This document shows positions 9,686-20,536 of a stretch of 52,317 nucleotides of DNA, piece by piece. The first letter of the stretch is position 1, and each line of letters begins with the position of its first letter. The notes under the pieces are model-generated. The model did not search any database, had not been told where the DNA came from, and saw only the letters and a list, made by a program, of their open reading frames with translations. Source of the stretch: Deltaproteobacteria bacterium (GTDB lineage: Bacteria; UBA10199; SPLOWO2-01-44-7); assembly GCA_023265595.1 (NCBI GenBank), contig JAHFSU010000001.1, positions 1-52,317 on the forward strand, written 5' to 3'. A program made the position numbers and the translations under genes.

Positions 9686-9688
9686 TTG

Positions 9689-9763
9689 TCGGGGTGATAG
9701 GATTTGAACCTACGGCCCCCTGCTCCCAAAGCAGGTGCTCTAGCCAGGCTGAGCTACACCCCG
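9689..9763 (-). tRNA. tRNA-Pro(TGG)
   Basis: The 75-nt cloverleaf on the minus strand has acceptor CGGGGTG/CACCCCG, D stem GCTC/GAGC, anticodon stem CCTGC/GCAGG with loop TTTGGGA (anticodon TGG), T arm GTAGG-TTCAAAT-CCTAT, discriminator A. CCA is not encoded. Its first ten bases are also the end of the rdgB coding sequence. It is 3 bases from the convergent histidine kinase stop codon. Confidence 0.95.
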
Positions 9764-10335
9764 AAAAATTTTGTCGCTAAAACAGTCTTTAACTTCTCCA
9801 ACGCCTTCCCGCGATGACTAATCCTATTTTTTTGTTCTAACGGAATTTCGGCCAATGTGCAACGGAAGGAGGATATCCAAAAAACAGGATCATAGCCAAA
9901 CCCTTCTCTCCCCGACGATTTTTCAGCAATCGTCCCGTTCAATTTTCCTGAAACCGTAATCTCCCGTCCATCAGGATGAACCAGCGCAACGACCGTTTCA
10001 AAATGGGCCCCCCTTTTTTCAAAAGAGAGGCCTTCCAGTTCTTTCAATAATTTTTTGATATTATCCTGAGCGGTCGCTTGTTCCCCGGCATACCGTGCCG
10101 ACAAAATCCCCGGCCTTCCATCCAGTGCATCGACAAAAAGGCCGGTATCATCGGCCAAGGCCCACATACCAGCCTTTACAGCCACAAGCCTTGCCTTTTG
10201 AAGCGCATTCTCCCGAAGGGTCTCCCCTTCTTCCTTCAAATCAAAATTTTCCCGCGGGAGAATTTCGACCGTTGTTAAATAAGCCTTGATCTCCTCAATT
10301 TTATGCCGATTATTTGTGGCCAAAACCAGCTTCAC
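9754..10335 (-). CDS. rdgB: XTP/dITP diphosphatase (RdgB/HAM1 family)
   Basis: The protein has 193 aa from GTG 10335, which has AAGAGGTG 5-6 bases upstream and gives the typical N-terminus [16 protein letters not shown]; an in-frame ATG at 10356 is less likely. Family motifs are [29 protein letters not shown] and [11 protein letters not shown], with a C-terminal SHRGKAL. The enzyme hydrolyses non-canonical purine triphosphates (ITP, dITP, XTP) to the monophosphate, keeping them out of nucleic acids. The start overlaps the end of rph by 26 bases. The last codons (GGG GTG TAG) lie inside tRNA-Pro, so the stop codon is tRNA bases 8-10. Confidence 0.93.
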
Positions 10336-11035
10336 GCAACACCTCTTTTTGTGCATGGATCAATTCCCGTATCCCTTTTGCCCCCAGTTTTTTGAGTAAT
10401 GTTAATTCTTTGTCGTTGAAGGGGTTGTGTTCTGCCGTCCCTTGAATCTCGATGAAACGCCCCTTCCCAGTCATCACCAAATTCATGTCGACATCGGCCT
10501 TGGAATCTTTTTCATAATCGAGATCGAGCCACGGTTTTCTTTTCACTATGCCCACACTGACCGCCGCAACAAAATCTTTCAGAGGCCACTGTTTGATCTT
10601 TTTATTTCGCATCAAAAACCGGCAGGCCAATGCTAAAGCGACATAACTGCCCGTGATCGAAGCGGTACGCGTTCCCCCATCGGCTTGCAAGACATCGCAA
10701 TCGATGAGGATCGAACGCTCTCCCATTTTTTTGAAATCGACCACACCGCGCAGGGCCCTGCCGATCAGACGTTGAATCTCCTGCGTCCGACTCGCCTGTT
10801 TTCCCTTAGCCGCTTCCCGATTGGTCCGCGTATGGGTTGCACGCGGAAGCATCCCGTATTCCGCCGTGACCCATCCTTCTCCCGAATTTTTTTTAAAATC
10901 GGGAACTTTTTCTTCCACACTGGCCGTACACAAAACCTTCGTATGGCCCATCGTGATCAGGCACGACCCTTCGGCATACGGATTCCACCCCGGCTCTAGT
11001 TTCAAAGGTCTCAATTCATTAAATTTCTTTTGCAT
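10310..11035 (-). CDS. rph: Ribonuclease PH
   Basis: The protein has 241 aa if started at ATG 11035 ([17 protein letters not shown]), which matches the usual RNase PH N-terminus; ATG 11071 adds 12 residues. Neither start has a clear Shine-Dalgarno site. Conserved blocks are [73 protein letters not shown] and [11 protein letters not shown]. It is a phosphorolytic 3'-5' exoribonuclease that trims tRNA 3' ends. It is coupled to rdgB, a common rph-rdgB pairing, and the tRNA-Pro gene follows immediately. Confidence 0.93.
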
Positions 11036-15270: not shown

Positions 15271-15825
15271 TTAATGATATTTATTCTGCACCCATTGTAA
15301 TCCATGTTTCAAAAAATCGGGTATCGATTGCGCCGCAGCCGTTGTCATTGCTTCCGCAGCCTCTCTTTCCTCTTTCAAAAAGGGTTGCAAAACATATTCG
15401 GCAATATCTTCCGATCCGGCCGGCCTTCCGATCCCCAACCGGACCCGATGGAAATCGGGTGTCGCGATCATGTCGGTGATGGAGCGGACACCATTGTGTC
15501 CTCCATGACCGGAAGCAAAAACCCAGCGTATCTTTCCCAAGGGTAAATCGAGATCGTCGTGAATCACGATCAGATCTTTTGTTGCAACACCTTTTTCTTT
15601 TAAAAGAGCCTGAATCGCCTTACCGCTCAAGTTCATCCAAGTAAACGGTTTGGCCAGCCAGCATTCCTCATTTTCCCATTCACCCCAAGCCACTTGGGCC
15701 AAGGCCGTTTTTTCCCATTCCCATCGGTTTTGTTTGGCCAAGAGATCGACCACTCCAAAACCGATATTGTGCCGATGGGCTTCGTATTCGTGGCCCGGAT
15801 TTCCAAGCCCCACGATCAGCTTCAT
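15271..15825 (-). CDS. pth: Peptidyl-tRNA hydrolase
   Basis: The protein has 184 aa. Catalytic and substrate residues are visible: GLGNPG with N9, HRHNIGF with H19, KPFTWMNLSG (Asn), IHDDLDLPLG (Asp) and SGHGGHNGVRS. It cleaves peptidyl-tRNAs that drop off the ribosome and recycles tRNA. The ATG overlaps the rplY stop as ATGA, so the pair is translationally coupled; rplY-pth is a frequent bacterial pairing. Confidence 0.96.
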   Translation of the reverse strand: MKLIVGLGNPGHEYEAHRHNIGFGVVDLLAKQNRWEWEKTALAQVAWGEWENEECWLAKPFTWMNLSGKAIQALLKEKGVATKDLIVIHDDLDLPLGKIRWVFASGHGGHNGVRSITDMIATPDFHRVRLGIGRPAGSEDIAEYVLQPFLKEEREAAEAMTTAAAQSIPDFLKHGLQWVQNKYH

Positions 15826-16526
15826 TTCTTCTCCGGTTTCGGTTGGGCCTCCTTGCCCTTCGCCTCTGCCCCTGCTGCCGATGCCGCACCCGGTGCGGCG
15901 CCCGCCGCTGTCGGCGCCCCTTCTGCCGGCGCTCCCTCCACAGCAACAGCCGCCGGTGTCGCCTCTTCTTCTTTCGCCGGCGGAACCACGGAGACAATTA
16001 CAAAATCGGTCTCATGGGGAAACTCAACCCCTTCGGGCAATTTTACATCATTGGCATGAACATTTTGGCCGATCTCCAAAGCCGAAACATCGATATCGAT
16101 ATGTTCCGGAATTTGCGTCACCAGACATTTAAGATGCAAGGTGCGTCGTTGTTGTTCGAGCACGCCTCCTTTTTTGACACCTTCTGCCTTACCAACAACG
16201 CGGATCGGAACTTCCACTTCGATTTTTGCTTTCAAATCGACCGATTGAAAATCGACATGGGTAAAATTTCGTTTAAGCGGATGCGCCTGATATTCACGAA
16301 TACGAACGAGGCCTTCTGTTTTGCCATCGACCGTTAATTCAAAAATAGCATTGAAGCCCGCTTCGGTCTTTGTCGCTTTTTCAAGCTCCTTGGCATTGAC
16401 CTGAACCAGTTTTGGCTCTTTCTTCTTGCCGTACACAATTCCCGGAACAAGTCCTTTTCCTCTCAAGGTAGCCAAACCGTGGCCGGCTTGTGCGCGGGTT
16501 TCTGCTGATAATTTTAAACGTTCCAT
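15822..16526 (-). CDS. rplY: 50S ribosomal protein L25 (CTC/TL5 long form)
   Basis: The protein has 234 aa, with GGGAGGA before ATG 16526. The N-terminal L25 domain that binds 5S rRNA (LSAETRAQAGHGLATLRGKGLVPGIVYG) is followed by the beta-rich TL5 C-terminal domain (VEVPIRVVGKAEGVKKGGVLEQQRRTLHLKCL ... IDIDVSALEIGQNVHANDVKLPEG). The tail (~45 residues) is low-complexity Ala/Gly/Glu. It sits between prs and pth as in many Gram-negatives. Confidence 0.95.
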   Translation of the reverse strand: MERLKLSAETRAQAGHGLATLRGKGLVPGIVYGKKKEPKLVQVNAKELEKATKTEAGFNAIFELTVDGKTEGLVRIREYQAHPLKRNFTHVDFQSVDLKAKIEVEVPIRVVGKAEGVKKGGVLEQQRRTLHLKCLVTQIPEHIDIDVSALEIGQNVHANDVKLPEGVEFPHETDFVIVSVVPPAKEEEATPAAVAVEGAPAEGAPTAAGAAPGAASAAGAEAKGKEAQPKPEKK

Positions 16527-16541
16527 AAAATCCTCCCAACT

Positions 16542-17489
16542 TTATACAAACAATGACGAAACGGAATCCGAATGATAAATTCTCCGGATCGCTTCTCCAA
16601 GCAAATTGGCAACCGACAAAATTTCAATTTTTGAAGATTTGCGGACCGCTTCTTCCTGACGGATTGAATCAGTGATCACTAACTTCTTAATTTTTGATTT
16701 ATTGATCCGTTCCAGAGCCGGCCCTGACAAAACAGCGTGGGTACAAACACCGTAAACCTCTTTTGCCCCGTTGTTTAAAAGGGCCTCCACCGCTTGGGCC
16801 ATAGTGCCGGCGGTATCGACGATATCATCGATGATGATGACCCGTTTGTCGGTCACTTCCCCGATCACATTCATGACTTCGGAAACATTGGGACGTGTGC
16901 GACGTTTATCAATCATGGCCAGCGGACAACTCAACCGCTTGGCATAAGCCCGTGAACGCTCTGCGGCACCGGCATCGGGGGCCACGACGACAAGGTCATC
17001 TTTCAACTGATCTTCGATGTATTTCAAAAAAACGGGCATTGCGAAAAGATTATCGACGGGGATATTGAAAAAACCCTGAATCTGACCGGCATGCATATCG
17101 AGCGACAAAACACGGTTCGCACCGGCGGCGGTCAACAGATCGGCAACGAGTTTGGCGCTGATCGGAGTGCGCGGCGCTACTTTGCGATCTTGTCTGGCAT
17201 AGCCATAATAGGGAACGACTGCGGTAATCCGGTCGGCGGAGGAACGCTTTAATGCGTCGATCATCACGAGAAGTTCCATCAAATTTTCATTGGCTGGATT
17301 GGAGGTCGGTTGGAGCACAAACGTATCCATGCCACGCACATTTTCTTTTATTTCGACCCAAACTTCACCGTCACTGAAGCGAGTAACAAGGGCCTCTCCC
17401 ATTGGCAATTCGAGAAAATGGACAATCGATTTTGCCAATTCGGGATTCGCATTCCCTGAAAAAATTTTAATATTCTTATAAGAGTACAT
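16542..17489 (-). CDS. prs: Ribose-phosphate pyrophosphokinase
   Basis: The 315-aa protein is the standard length. Motifs are [15 protein letters not shown] near the N-terminus, [26 protein letters not shown] (ATP site), [30 protein letters not shown] and the PRPP loop [14 protein letters not shown]. It makes PRPP from ribose 5-phosphate and ATP for nucleotide, His and Trp synthesis. No Shine-Dalgarno site is seen before ATG 17489. The ~100 bases upstream are occupied by palindromic repeats and tRNA-Gln. Confidence 0.96.
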
Positions 17490-17496
17490 TGTTTAG

Positions 17497-17595
17497 TCCG
17501 ATACACGATACCCGATATACGATAAACGAAATTTGGCAACAGCTGCGTATATCGTGTATCGTATATCGGAACAAATTTGGCTGTTGCCAAATTTG
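17497..17595. repeat. Intergenic palindromic repeat cluster
   Basis: The strings GATACACGATA and GATATACGATAAACG near 17500-17530 are answered by CGTATATCGTGTATCG and GTATATCGG near 17546-17570. An outer 15-bp inverted repeat, AAATTTGGCAACAGC (about 17530) and GCTGTTGCCAAATTT (17580-17594), brackets the second half. The cluster lies between tRNA-Gln and prs. Confidence 0.6.
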
Positions 17596-17666
17596 TTGGG
17601 GCGCCTGGATTCGAACCAGGGATGGCAGCTCCAAAGGCTGCTGACTTACCGCTTGTCGACGCCCCA
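17596..17666 (-). tRNA. tRNA-Gln(TTG)
   Basis: Minus-strand cloverleaf of about 71 nt: acceptor TGGGGCG/CGCCCCA, short D stem GAC/GTC, anticodon stem GCAGC/GCTGC with loop CTTTGGA (anticodon TTG), T arm CTGG-TTCGAATC-CAGG, discriminator A. The T1 first base and overall shape are typical of bacterial tRNA-Gln. The first 21 bases are also the end of the ispE reading frame. Confidence 0.93.
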
Positions 17667-18539
17667 ATTTTCAACAGCGAAAATCTGCCACTTTGGTTGA
17701 ATTTTAATTTGTTGCAGCGCCCCGTCTCTTTTTTCTTTCCTGTCAAACAATCCAAAAACCGTCGACCCCGACCCACTCATTAAGACACCTTCGGCACCGG
17801 CATATTTCAGAGCCTCTTTAGCCTTCTGAATTTCCGGATATTTCGGAATGACAACCGACTCGAAATCGTTATGTAATTCCTGAATAATCTCCGCAAAGGT
17901 GCGGCGGCTTGTAACACTTCGATTTTGGGGTGTCAATGAACCTTTACCGAAGGTGTCTGACTCTTTCACGGCTGAAAGTGTCAGACTCTTTCGAACATCC
18001 CATGCCGAATAGGCCCAAGGGGTAGAAATGGATACACCCGGATTAATAAGTATTATCGATAAGTTGGGAAGATTTGTTAAAGAAGTTATTTGATCCCCGA
18101 TCCCCTCTATATGAGCCGGCCCATCATTAATAAAAAAAGGGACATCGGCGCCCAATTTTGACCCCAGTTCCGCTAATTTTGTGGAGGGCCAATCGAGCCC
18201 CCAAAGCCTGTTCAGAACTTTTAAAACGGTGGCGGCATTAGAAGAACCGCCCCCCAACCCACCCCCCATCGGGATATTTTTCTTCACCTGGAGCCTGGCA
18301 CCATAGGATACTTTTCCTTTCTGTTTTAAAAGCATGGCCGCCTTATAGACCAAATTTTTTTCGGGGGGCCCATCCACAGCAGGACAGTGCACTTCAATCC
18401 CCGAAGGGATTTTTTCAAATTGAAGTTCATCAAAGAGGGAAATTTTTTCCATCAGGGAAAAAATATTATGATAACCATCCGGACGACGGCTCAAAATTTC
18501 CAAGAAAAGATTTATTTTGGCCGGAGATTTTACGATCAT
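17646..18539 (-). CDS. ispE: 4-diphosphocytidyl-2-C-methyl-D-erythritol kinase
   Basis: The protein has 297 aa from ATG 18539 (MIVKSPAKINLFLEIL, the canonical IspE start), which overlaps the aminopeptidase stop as ATGA. The GHMP-kinase ATP motif is PMGGGLGGGSSNAATVL; GADVPFF and SGSGSTVFGLF are the other hallmarks. It phosphorylates CDP-ME in the MEP isoprenoid pathway. Two oddities are visible. A 32-base hairpin repeat (17955-17986) is translated as SLTLSAVKESD in a variable region. The last codons (TGG GGC GTC GAC AAG CGG TAA) are the first bases of tRNA-Gln, so the stop lies in the tRNA D-arm. Confidence 0.94.
   Translation of the reverse strand: MIVKSPAKINLFLEILSRRPDGYHNIFSLMEKISLFDELQFEKIPSGIEVHCPAVDGPPEKNLVYKAAMLLKQKGKVSYGARLQVKKNIPMGGGLGGGSSNAATVLKVLNRLWGLDWPSTKLAELGSKLGADVPFFINDGPAHIEGIGDQITSLTNLPNLSIILINPGVSISTPWAYSAWDVRKSLTLSAVKESDTFGKGSLTPQNRSVTSRRTFAEIIQELHNDFESVVIPKYPEIQKAKEALKYAGAEGVLMSGSGSTVFGLFDRKEKRDGALQQIKIQPKWQIFAVENWGVDKR
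17955..17986. repeat. Hairpin repeat inside ispE
   Basis: Arms GTCTGAC-T-CTTTCA and TGAAAG-T-GTCAGAC enclose a CGGC loop: 13 of 14 pairs with one T-T mismatch. It also appears as the near-direct repeat GTGTCTGACTCTTTC / GTGTCAGACTCTTTC. It is in frame with ispE and translated. Confidence 0.6.
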
Positions 18540-20536
18540 CTCAAAGCCTTCGTGATTTCTTCGATAGCTAACGCATGCAGTTTTGGTTTTGTCTTGGCAA
18601 AAATTTCTTCTGCCCGTTTTTTTTCTCCACTGCGAACCCATGCATTGTAGATCGGACGAATCAGTTTGACTCTCCCCACCCGCTCCAGAAACTGCTCCAT
18701 GTGCGGGTAGGCTTTTTGATAACGATATTTCGCAACGAGTGTATACCAGAGCGAAGCGATTTCAGCGTTGGGTGTCTCATTTAATGCATAATCTTTTTCC
18801 AATCTTTCAAGAATCTTTGCCGGTATTTTTTGCTCTTCCAGAAACCGCATCAAAAATTGGGCCCACATCTGCCAGACCCATTGCGTCGCATCCAATGAAG
18901 GAAGCGCACCGCCGGATTCGGCAATCCATTTTTCCGCCAACGCTTTTGCTTCGTCCATTTCCGGCGATTTGAAAACGGGGGCGCCGGCGGGAATGCCCGG
19001 CCCATAGAGCCAACGGTCGAGATCGTCGTCATCAATGCCGACTTTCTCCAGCGGCAATTTCTTCTTCAAAAAATCGACAAAATCTTTTGCGGTCAAGTTG
19101 CTGAAGGCAAATGTGGCTATATATTCCCGAACGAAATCAAGGAATCTTTCCTCGCCGAATTTTCTCTCAAGCCACGTCACAAAAAGAAAGCCCTTTTCAT
19201 AGGGGATAAAAGAGACAACCTCATCGGGGTTTTCAAAAGTAGCTGTCACCGCCAATGCCGTCGTGGCGCTGCGTCCGGGCGTATTCAAATGATCCTGAAT
19301 CCGACTGATCCCCTCGATCGCATTCATGTTGTAGGACGCCTCGCCATAAACTTTTTTCAAAATTTTTCGTTCCGCCCAAACTGTAAACCCCTCATTGATC
19401 CAAAAATCGGGAAGGTGGGCATTCGTGACCGAATCGCCGAACCAATAGTGGGCCAATTCATGCGCCGCAACACACATCAAAGAACCGTCGCCTGTGATAA
19501 TCGTGGGGCTGTCAAAAATGATCCCAACATTTTCCATGCCCCCCATCGGAAAACTAGGGGGTAAAAGAACCGTATCGGCAACAGACCACGGCATCGGCCC
19601 AAAAAACGACTCGGCCGCCTGCACAAACTTTTCGTAAATTTTAAAATCGGCAACGGCCTTTTCCTTAATGTAGGATTCGAAATAAAGAAGGGTCCGCTCA
19701 CTGAGCCGCATCGCCTCCATATCACCGATCGCAAAGGCAATCAGATACGTGGAAATCGGGTGTTCCGAAATTTGATAATGCCAGACATCATATCCCTTTT
19801 CCTTTTGAGGTGTTTGGGGCACTCCCTGATGCGGCTGATTGCTCACCATGACGGCGCGCAATCCCAAATCGCTTTTCACACGCAACACAGCCAAAAAAGT
19901 CATCTTGGCCCGCGGCGTATCCTGAAGCGGCGCCCAACCGCGGTTGTGATAATATTGTCCCTGTGTATATAAAAAGGGTTTTTTTTCGGAGGCGGTCTGC
20001 TGCGGCTCCAGCCACTGAAGACCGGCTGGAATATTTTTGGAGTCGGTTTCATAAATCACTTTTACGCGGGAAACATTTTGAGGGAGATCGATAGTTAATG
20101 AAGAACCGATATATTTTTTTTCTTTCCCCAAGCGGAACGTCGTTTTTTCCCATTTTTCTTTTTGATGTTTTAATTCGACCGAAACTTCCCGGATCAAAAG
20201 CGATTTGGTATCGAGGATTAGATGGTTTGCCTCCTGTTTTCCCAAGGAGTAGATAGCCGTTCCGGAAATTTGTTTCTTCTCAAAATTAAATATCAGATCC
20301 AAATCGGCATGAACCACACGGACCCGATCAAAATTGGAATGGGTATAAGGATCTTTCGCTGTCTGAGCCGTCGGGCGGTCGGCAACATATTCCGGTTTTT
20401 CGGGAAGCGGCTCCCCCTTCAAAAAACGTTTCAGCGAATTTTTGAAATTGTCCGGCTCGATTTCCCCTTCAACCACCTTCAATTTCAACGTCTCAATAAG
20501 CTGCTGTGCCTCAACCGCATTGAATTCGATTTTCAT
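18536..20536 (-). CDS. M1-family zinc aminopeptidase (LTA4H-like)
   Basis: The protein has 666 aa and no signal peptide. The exopeptidase motif PMGGMENVG and the zinc site HELAHYWFGD (H359, E360, H363) with E382 in WINEGFTVWAER show an intact HExxH-18-E M1 peptidase. The C-terminal helical region (~550-666) resembles the leukotriene A4 hydrolase C-terminal domain, so it belongs to the LTA4H-like branch. The N-terminus carries ~45 extra charged helical residues before the beta domain. It removes N-terminal amino acids from peptides, probably in the cytoplasm. It overlaps ispE by 4 bases and is the first gene of the long minus-strand run. Confidence 0.92.
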   Translation of the reverse strand: MKIEFNAVEAQQLIETLKLKVVEGEIEPDNFKNSLKRFLKGEPLPEKPEYVADRPTAQTAKDPYTHSNFDRVRVVHADLDLIFNFEKKQISGTAIYSLGKQEANHLILDTKSLLIREVSVELKHQKEKWEKTTFRLGKEKKYIGSSLTIDLPQNVSRVKVIYETDSKNIPAGLQWLEPQQTASEKKPFLYTQGQYYHNRGWAPLQDTPRAKMTFLAVLRVKSDLGLRAVMVSNQPHQGVPQTPQKEKGYDVWHYQISEHPISTYLIAFAIGDMEAMRLSERTLLYFESYIKEKAVADFKIYEKFVQAAESFFGPMPWSVADTVLLPPSFPMGGMENVGIIFDSPTIITGDGSLMCVAAHELAHYWFGDSVTNAHLPDFWINEGFTVWAERKILKKVYGEASYNMNAIEGISRIQDHLNTPGRSATTALAVTATFENPDEVVSFIPYEKGFLFVTWLERKFGEERFLDFVREYIATFAFSNLTAKDFVDFLKKKLPLEKVGIDDDDLDRWLYGPGIPAGAPVFKSPEMDEAKALAEKWIAESGGALPSLDATQWVWQMWAQFLMRFLEEQKIPAKILERLEKDYALNETPNAEIASLWYTLVAKYRYQKAYPHMEQFLERVGRVKLIRPIYNAWVRSGEKKRAEEIFAKTKPKLHALAIEEITKALR

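Follow-up and report, generated by a model that had tools for sequence, protein, structure and literature searches.

The ispE gene of this genome ends inside the tRNA-Gln(UUG) gene that follows it on the same strand, with 21 nucleotides serving both as the last codons of the kinase and as the 5′ part of the tRNA. The overlap is probably a tolerated, neutral capture of a stop codon belonging to the tRNA and not a selected switch. A bacterial protein gene can thus end inside the gene of an unrelated housekeeping tRNA; the same ispE/tRNA-Gln junction has been hit repeatedly, with conserved tRNA nucleotides dictating where translation stops. The locus offers a natural system for RNase P versus ribosome on one transcript, of which cultured examples exist.

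The ispE reading frame ends in the tRNA D-loop

In the window (the whole stretch of DNA analysed, 52,317 nt), ispE and its tRNA lie in a run of minus-strand genes:

15271..15825, minus: probable pth, peptidyl-tRNA hydrolase, named from ORF sequence and usual gene order only
15822..16526, minus: rplY/ctc, ribosomal protein bL25 (TIGR00731, E = 2.2e-45)
16542..17489, minus: prs, ribose-phosphate diphosphokinase (NF002320, E = 3.9e-144)
17490..17595, minus: tRNA–prs spacer, with a palindromic repeat
17596..17666, minus: tRNA-Gln(UUG) (ARAGORN 17666..17595; Infernal 17666..17596, 59 bits)
17646..17648, minus: ispE stop TAA, tRNA nucleotides 19–21, in the D-loop
17646..17666, minus: ispE/tRNA-Gln overlap, TGG GGC GTC GAC AAG CGG TAA, tRNA nucleotides 1–21, from the 5′ acceptor strand to the D-loop
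17646..18539, minus: ispE, 4-diphosphocytidyl-2-C-methyl-D-erythritol kinase, 297 aa (TIGR00154; Pfam GHMP N and C domains)
18536..20536, minus: M1 aminopeptidase gene (PF01433, E = 9.6e-37)

The ispE product is an equivalog match to TIGR00154 (E = 1.3e-68; 231.8 bits, cut-off 138.7), retains the conserved GHMP core including the PMGGGLGGGSSNAA motif, and has relatives in the PDB that include 8ckh and 1oj4. Its gene ends GAA AAT TGG GGC GTC GAC AAG CGG TAA, with the first base of the tRNA at 17666. There is no in-frame stop before the TAA at 17648–17646 and no spacer ahead of the tRNA; a same-strand ORF here enters a tRNA gene without stopping. The sequence-only reading had placed the ispE stop inside tRNA-Gln with a 21-base overlap, and this is borne out (17646–17666, stop included), as is its identification of the last seven ispE codons with tRNA nucleotides 1–21, which both the sequence and ARAGORN confirm.

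The tRNA itself is intact and plausibly functional, as judged by ARAGORN and Infernal, with a normal cloverleaf call and no encoded CCA. It is the only UUG tRNA-Gln found among the 40 tRNAs of the assembly, the second tRNA-Gln being CUG. Upstream, the TGA of the M1 aminopeptidase gene overlaps the ispE ATG (ATGA), which suggests a single transcript for these two genes. The 12 genomes of the class that were checked all keep the order ispE–prs–rplY, tRNA-Gln sitting between the first two genes, and this order and spacing point to probable co-transcription of ispE and the tRNA.

The palindromic repeat 3′ of tRNA-Gln (17490–17594, about 100 bp) has related copies 3′ of tRNA-Lys and tRNA-Cys in this genome (C35:27902-27999 and C48:15017-15113). 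A hairpin element of similar layout and different sequence follows tRNA-Gln in a genome of the same genus.

Overlap, spacer or inversion in relatives

The sampled genomes are mostly MAGs. We compared this genome (G000) with G001, of the same genus, G003, of another genus in the same family, and G004 and G005, also of the same family. G001 and G003 have the identical 21-nt overlap, down to the AAT|TGG junction; in the species keeping this exact junction (three genomes in all), IspE is 65–74% identical to that of the window. In G004 and G005, a nearly identical tRNA-Gln is inverted in place, lying 1 and 5 nt beyond the ispE stop, itself one residue past Asn291 (AVENG and TAENN, each followed by the stop). 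An earlier ispE stop in a close relative, which the sequence-only reading held to count against the overlap, is thus found in part of the family: G001 and G003 keep the overlap, whereas G004 and G005, with their earlier stop and inverted tRNA, lack it, as do the outgroups.

Among the 36 class genomes with tRNA-Gln found beside ispE, the tRNA is in sense orientation behind a spacer in 25 (2 to about 760 nt), on the opposite strand in 6 and in sense overlap in 5. All seven outgroup genomes have the spaced sense arrangement, so both overlap and inversion are likely derived from it. On a tree of IspE, Prs and RplY, G000 groups with G001; a topology with one clade each for overlaps and inversions has a p-AU of about 0.22, and neither single versus multiple events nor the order of overlap and inversion is settled by the family tree.

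The comparison bears on the six residues that ispE gains from the tRNA. As G004 and G005 stop one codon past the position of tRNA entry, the tail WGVDKR reads as a tRNA-encoded appendage. The AlphaFold model of IspE, of low confidence and poor overall, places the last strand at residues 285–291 and gives the tail (292–297) pLDDT values below 50. The 21 shared nucleotides are also present in the inverted copies, with one C/T difference, in G004. Since they belong to the tRNA and hold in the inverted copies too, there is no sign of selection on the peptide WGVDKR, which is probably a by-product that would lack function. Conservation of the tRNA alone accounts for all 21 overlap nucleotides, and the sole non-trivial conserved property is that ispE enters the tRNA in frame 1 without a prior stop.

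An inverted tRNA-Gln between ispE and prs was seen at L071 and L072 (same family) and at L073, L074, L075 and L061 (same class); at L074 it overlaps the end of ispE by 13 nt. With inverted copies in several lineages, the tRNA has apparently been flipped in place more than once.

The tRNA's own stop triplets set the overlap length

An ORF that enters tRNA-Gln in frame 1 meets UAA at nucleotides 19–21, giving a 21-nt overlap. Entry in frame 2 ends at U8A9G10 where this is present, giving a 10-nt overlap; with C9 nothing halts the ORF, which continues through the entire tRNA. The overlap length is therefore fixed by stop triplets belonging to the tRNA, and all three outcomes occur at ispE/tRNA-Gln. 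The 10-nt form with U8A9G10 is found in two genomes from another family of the window's class (L020, L070). Among the matches listed, which did not include the family itself, 70 other ispE loci have tRNA-Gln downstream; six of these overlap, all obeying the stop rule. Two isolate genomes, Desulfobulbus alkaliphilus DSM 24258 (L119) and Pyrinomonas methylaliphatogenes K22 (L157), belong to the 21-nt class, and two Acidobacteriota MAGs (L142, L168) to the 10-nt class, ARAGORN setting the L142 tRNA one base earlier. Two MAGs of Desulfobacterota type, from Desulfobacterales and Desulforhopalus (L136, L147), have UCG at positions 8–10 and read through the whole tRNA. Because overlap forms recur in such distant genomes under the same rule, the ispE/tRNA-Gln overlap has arisen several times, independently in D. 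alkaliphilus and P. methylaliphatogenes.

These distributions speak to a trivial explanation, that an assembly or sequencing error removed the true ispE stop or that the tRNA call is false. The source is a 70-contig assembly; against this, the tRNA has an Infernal score of 59 bits, isolate genomes also carry the 21-nt form, and the junction is identical in two separately assembled relatives, G001 and G003. With the identical overlap in G000, G001 and G003, an assembly error is very unlikely, and we give an artefact of either kind almost no credence.

Apparent overlaps at L097, L099, L102, L106, L117, L122 and L156 came from tblastn extension through stops and were rejected by an ORF-based check.

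Further gene ends inside tRNAs in this genome

Seven of the 40 tRNAs in this genome contain the stop of an upstream same-strand gene:

ispE/tRNA-Gln, 21 nt
hemA/tRNA-Val, 10 nt
rdgB/tRNA-Pro, 10 nt, inside this window
periplasmic binding protein/tRNA-Asp, 10 nt
GIY-YIG protein/tRNA-Asn, 10 nt
LAGLIDADG protein/tRNA-Leu, 36 nt
HTH protein of LAGLIDADG-like kind/tRNA-Ser, 24 nt

The control for this count is a single relative, G026, with none in 32 (Fisher p = 0.015). Once the three endonuclease-like genes are removed, the comparison becomes 4/40 against 0/32 (p = 0.12), so the enrichment is suggestive only. About 30 of the 37–43 tRNAs were examined per relative.

The second case within the window comprises:

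9688..9763, minus: tRNA-Pro(UGG) (ARAGORN)
9754..10356, minus: rdgB/HAM1 (XTP/dITP diphosphatase), stop TAG at nucleotides 8–10 of tRNA-Pro(UGG)

TAG occupies positions 8–10 in 24 of the 40 tRNAs of this genome, so a frame-2 ORF usually ends at nucleotide 10. The adjacent rdgB and tRNA-Pro are separated by gaps of 22 nt in G001 and 41 nt in G026 and overlap by 25 nt in G003. In G003, the hemA/tRNA-Val and rdgB/tRNA-Pro overlaps are 23 and 25 nt, in frames that differ from those of this genome.

A broad reading of these cases is that tRNA genes serve as general 3′ ends in the family, supplying stops and, through RNase P, nonstop messages that would tie the expression of IspE, HemA and RdgB to tRNA maturation and tmRNA rescue. 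We think this improbable; if it were true, several housekeeping enzymes would be coupled to both processes.

Predicted RNase P cleavage and the fate of the ispE message

Translation of ispE would end at the D-loop UAA of the tRNA. Cleavage by RNase P before U17666 would instead leave an ispE message that ends after Asn291 and lacks a stop. The sequence-only reading had predicted such a nonstop message, and the geometry agrees: the cut falls on a codon boundary, GAA AAT | UGG. From this geometry and the gene content, one RNA molecule could be either a complete ispE message or a tRNA source, not both. The competition of translation with tRNA maturation that the sequence-only reading proposed may occur, perhaps at a cost to IspE output. 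The genome has an RNase P RNA gene and a tmRNA gene next to smpB; the latter was identified by Infernal (91 bits) and was not called by ARAGORN. As the tmRNA and SmpB genes are present, ribosomes arriving at stopless ispE ends could be rescued by them. A bacterial nonstop message made by endonucleolytic cleavage within the coding region is known from arfA. The ispE cut would likewise create a natural tmRNA substrate inside a coding sequence, although the enzyme is RNase III for arfA and would be RNase P here, and regulation has been shown for arfA only.

An alternative fold, present in the MFE structure, pairs ispE GGGGCGC with the 3′ acceptor strand of the tRNA; we treat it as chance because G003 does not conserve the ispE segment involved.

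The conflict between message and tRNA would be small if a promoter of its own, inside ispE, made most of the tRNA and full-length ispE transcripts added little. We rate this as unlikely, if somewhat less so than selected coupling. The tRNA lies on the opposite strand in G004 and G005 and must therefore have its own promoter there; by eye, TTGATG-16-TATATA lies at the start of prs, ahead of the inverted tRNA, a weak match that the scan does not list. Within the window's ispE, a promoter-like TTAACA-17-GATAAT lies at 18080-18052, with a weaker TTAACA-17-GATTAT in G001. This site lies within conserved coding sequence almost 400 nt upstream of the tRNA; G003 lacks it, and G004, with its antisense tRNA, has a similar one. 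Promoter-like hits are at best modestly above the shuffle mean (8 versus 3.0, s.d. 1.9), and any ispE transcript reaching the tRNA could still be cut. The separate tRNA promoter that the sequence-only reading suggested seeking in ispE was not recovered: simple consensus scans, on which all these promoter results rest, gave no site that the overlap genomes share and the genomes with an inverted tRNA lack.

Alternatively, the overlap may be a selected regulatory device in which RNase P maturation of tRNA-Gln limits IspE via the nonstop message and tmRNA tagging, isoprenoid synthesis then being set by the maturation of the tRNA. Conservation of the exact junction in three genomes, together with the presence of RNase P RNA, tmRNA and SmpB, accords with this, and a similar model has been proposed for selB/tRNA-Sec (PMC8124441). 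Yet 25 of the 36 class genomes have a spacer and 6 an antisense tRNA; the frame and length of the overlap vary, as stop capture predicts; and the unrelated hemA and rdgB overlap other tRNAs, in frames that differ among relatives. No functional connection of IspE with tRNA-Gln is known to us. Taken with these points, selected coupling is in our judgement distinctly unlikely, although three divergent species retain precisely this junction, which could also mean that it is useful.

Neutral capture is favoured because frames are variable, unrelated genes are affected, and spaced and inverted forms are frequent. An ancestor with the old ispE–tRNA-Gln–prs order would have lost the ispE stop and the spacer, a direction of change that we infer; translation would then have extended six codons into the tRNA, to the D-loop UAA. 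Such an overlap would be tolerated because the IspE fold ends at Asn291 and little IspE is likely needed. It can also become trapped, since without a spacer a new stop costs conserved IspE residues or needs an insertion.

Relation to known overlaps

The closest precedent is the overlap of selB with selC (tRNA-Sec) in Alphaproteobacteria, Gammaproteobacteria and Nitrospirae (Mukai 2021, PMC8124441), for which nested, partial and reversed forms and a nonstop-message model were described, in what was presented as the first report of a tRNA nested within a bacterial ORF. In both systems an upstream ORF enters a same-strand tRNA, partial overlaps stop at a fixed position in the tRNA, fully nested and reversed forms exist, close relatives have a separating stop, and processing of the tRNA is predicted to leave a nonstop message. 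The differences lie in the partners: SelB binds tRNA-Sec, whereas tRNA-Gln is an elongator housekeeping tRNA and IspE, an isoprenoid kinase with GHMP domains only, has no known tie to it. The ispE locus therefore belongs with a wider class of ORF/tRNA overlap and not with selB–selC. The stop also differs, lying at tRNA nucleotides 19–21 (D-loop) as against 46–48 in selB–selC. Several unrelated genes end in tRNAs in the ispE genome, which weakens an explanation of the SelB-homeostasis type.

Mitochondrial tRNA/mRNA overlaps, such as that of Armadillidium vulgare (cited in PMC8124441), are similar in that a coding sequence and a tRNA share nucleotides and excising one truncates the other. They are driven by compact organelle genomes, whereas the ispE case lies in a 1.87-Mb bacterial genome. 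Our literature search, with subscription journals mostly outside its coverage, turned up nothing on ispE combined with tRNA-Gln and prs. Annotation rules that bar overlap of genes with tRNAs may miss or trim genes of this type.

Genes and inserts beside tRNAs

In this genome (L043 428-1510) and G003 (L213 1552-2601), the match of hemA covers only roughly the first 330-337 of the model's 416 positions; the C-terminal domain seems to be lost where hemA enters tRNA-Val.

Free-standing LAGLIDADG, HTH-LAGLIDADG-like and other endonuclease-like genes lie directly upstream of various tRNAs, and most stop inside them (L087 and L088 in this genome; L185, L199 and L206 in G001; L227 and L218 in G003; L237, L254 and L260 in G004). 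In G001, such genes split the binding-protein gene from tRNA-Asp and hemA from tRNA-Val, pairs that overlap directly in this genome. Their positions suggest mobile genes aimed at tRNA 5′ ends. Downstream of tRNA-Thr(CGU) (L031 370-560) and tRNA-Thr(GGU) (L032 2007-2190), the tRNA 3′ end recurs beyond an insert of about 90 bp, an arrangement resembling an integration scar or a small integrated element.
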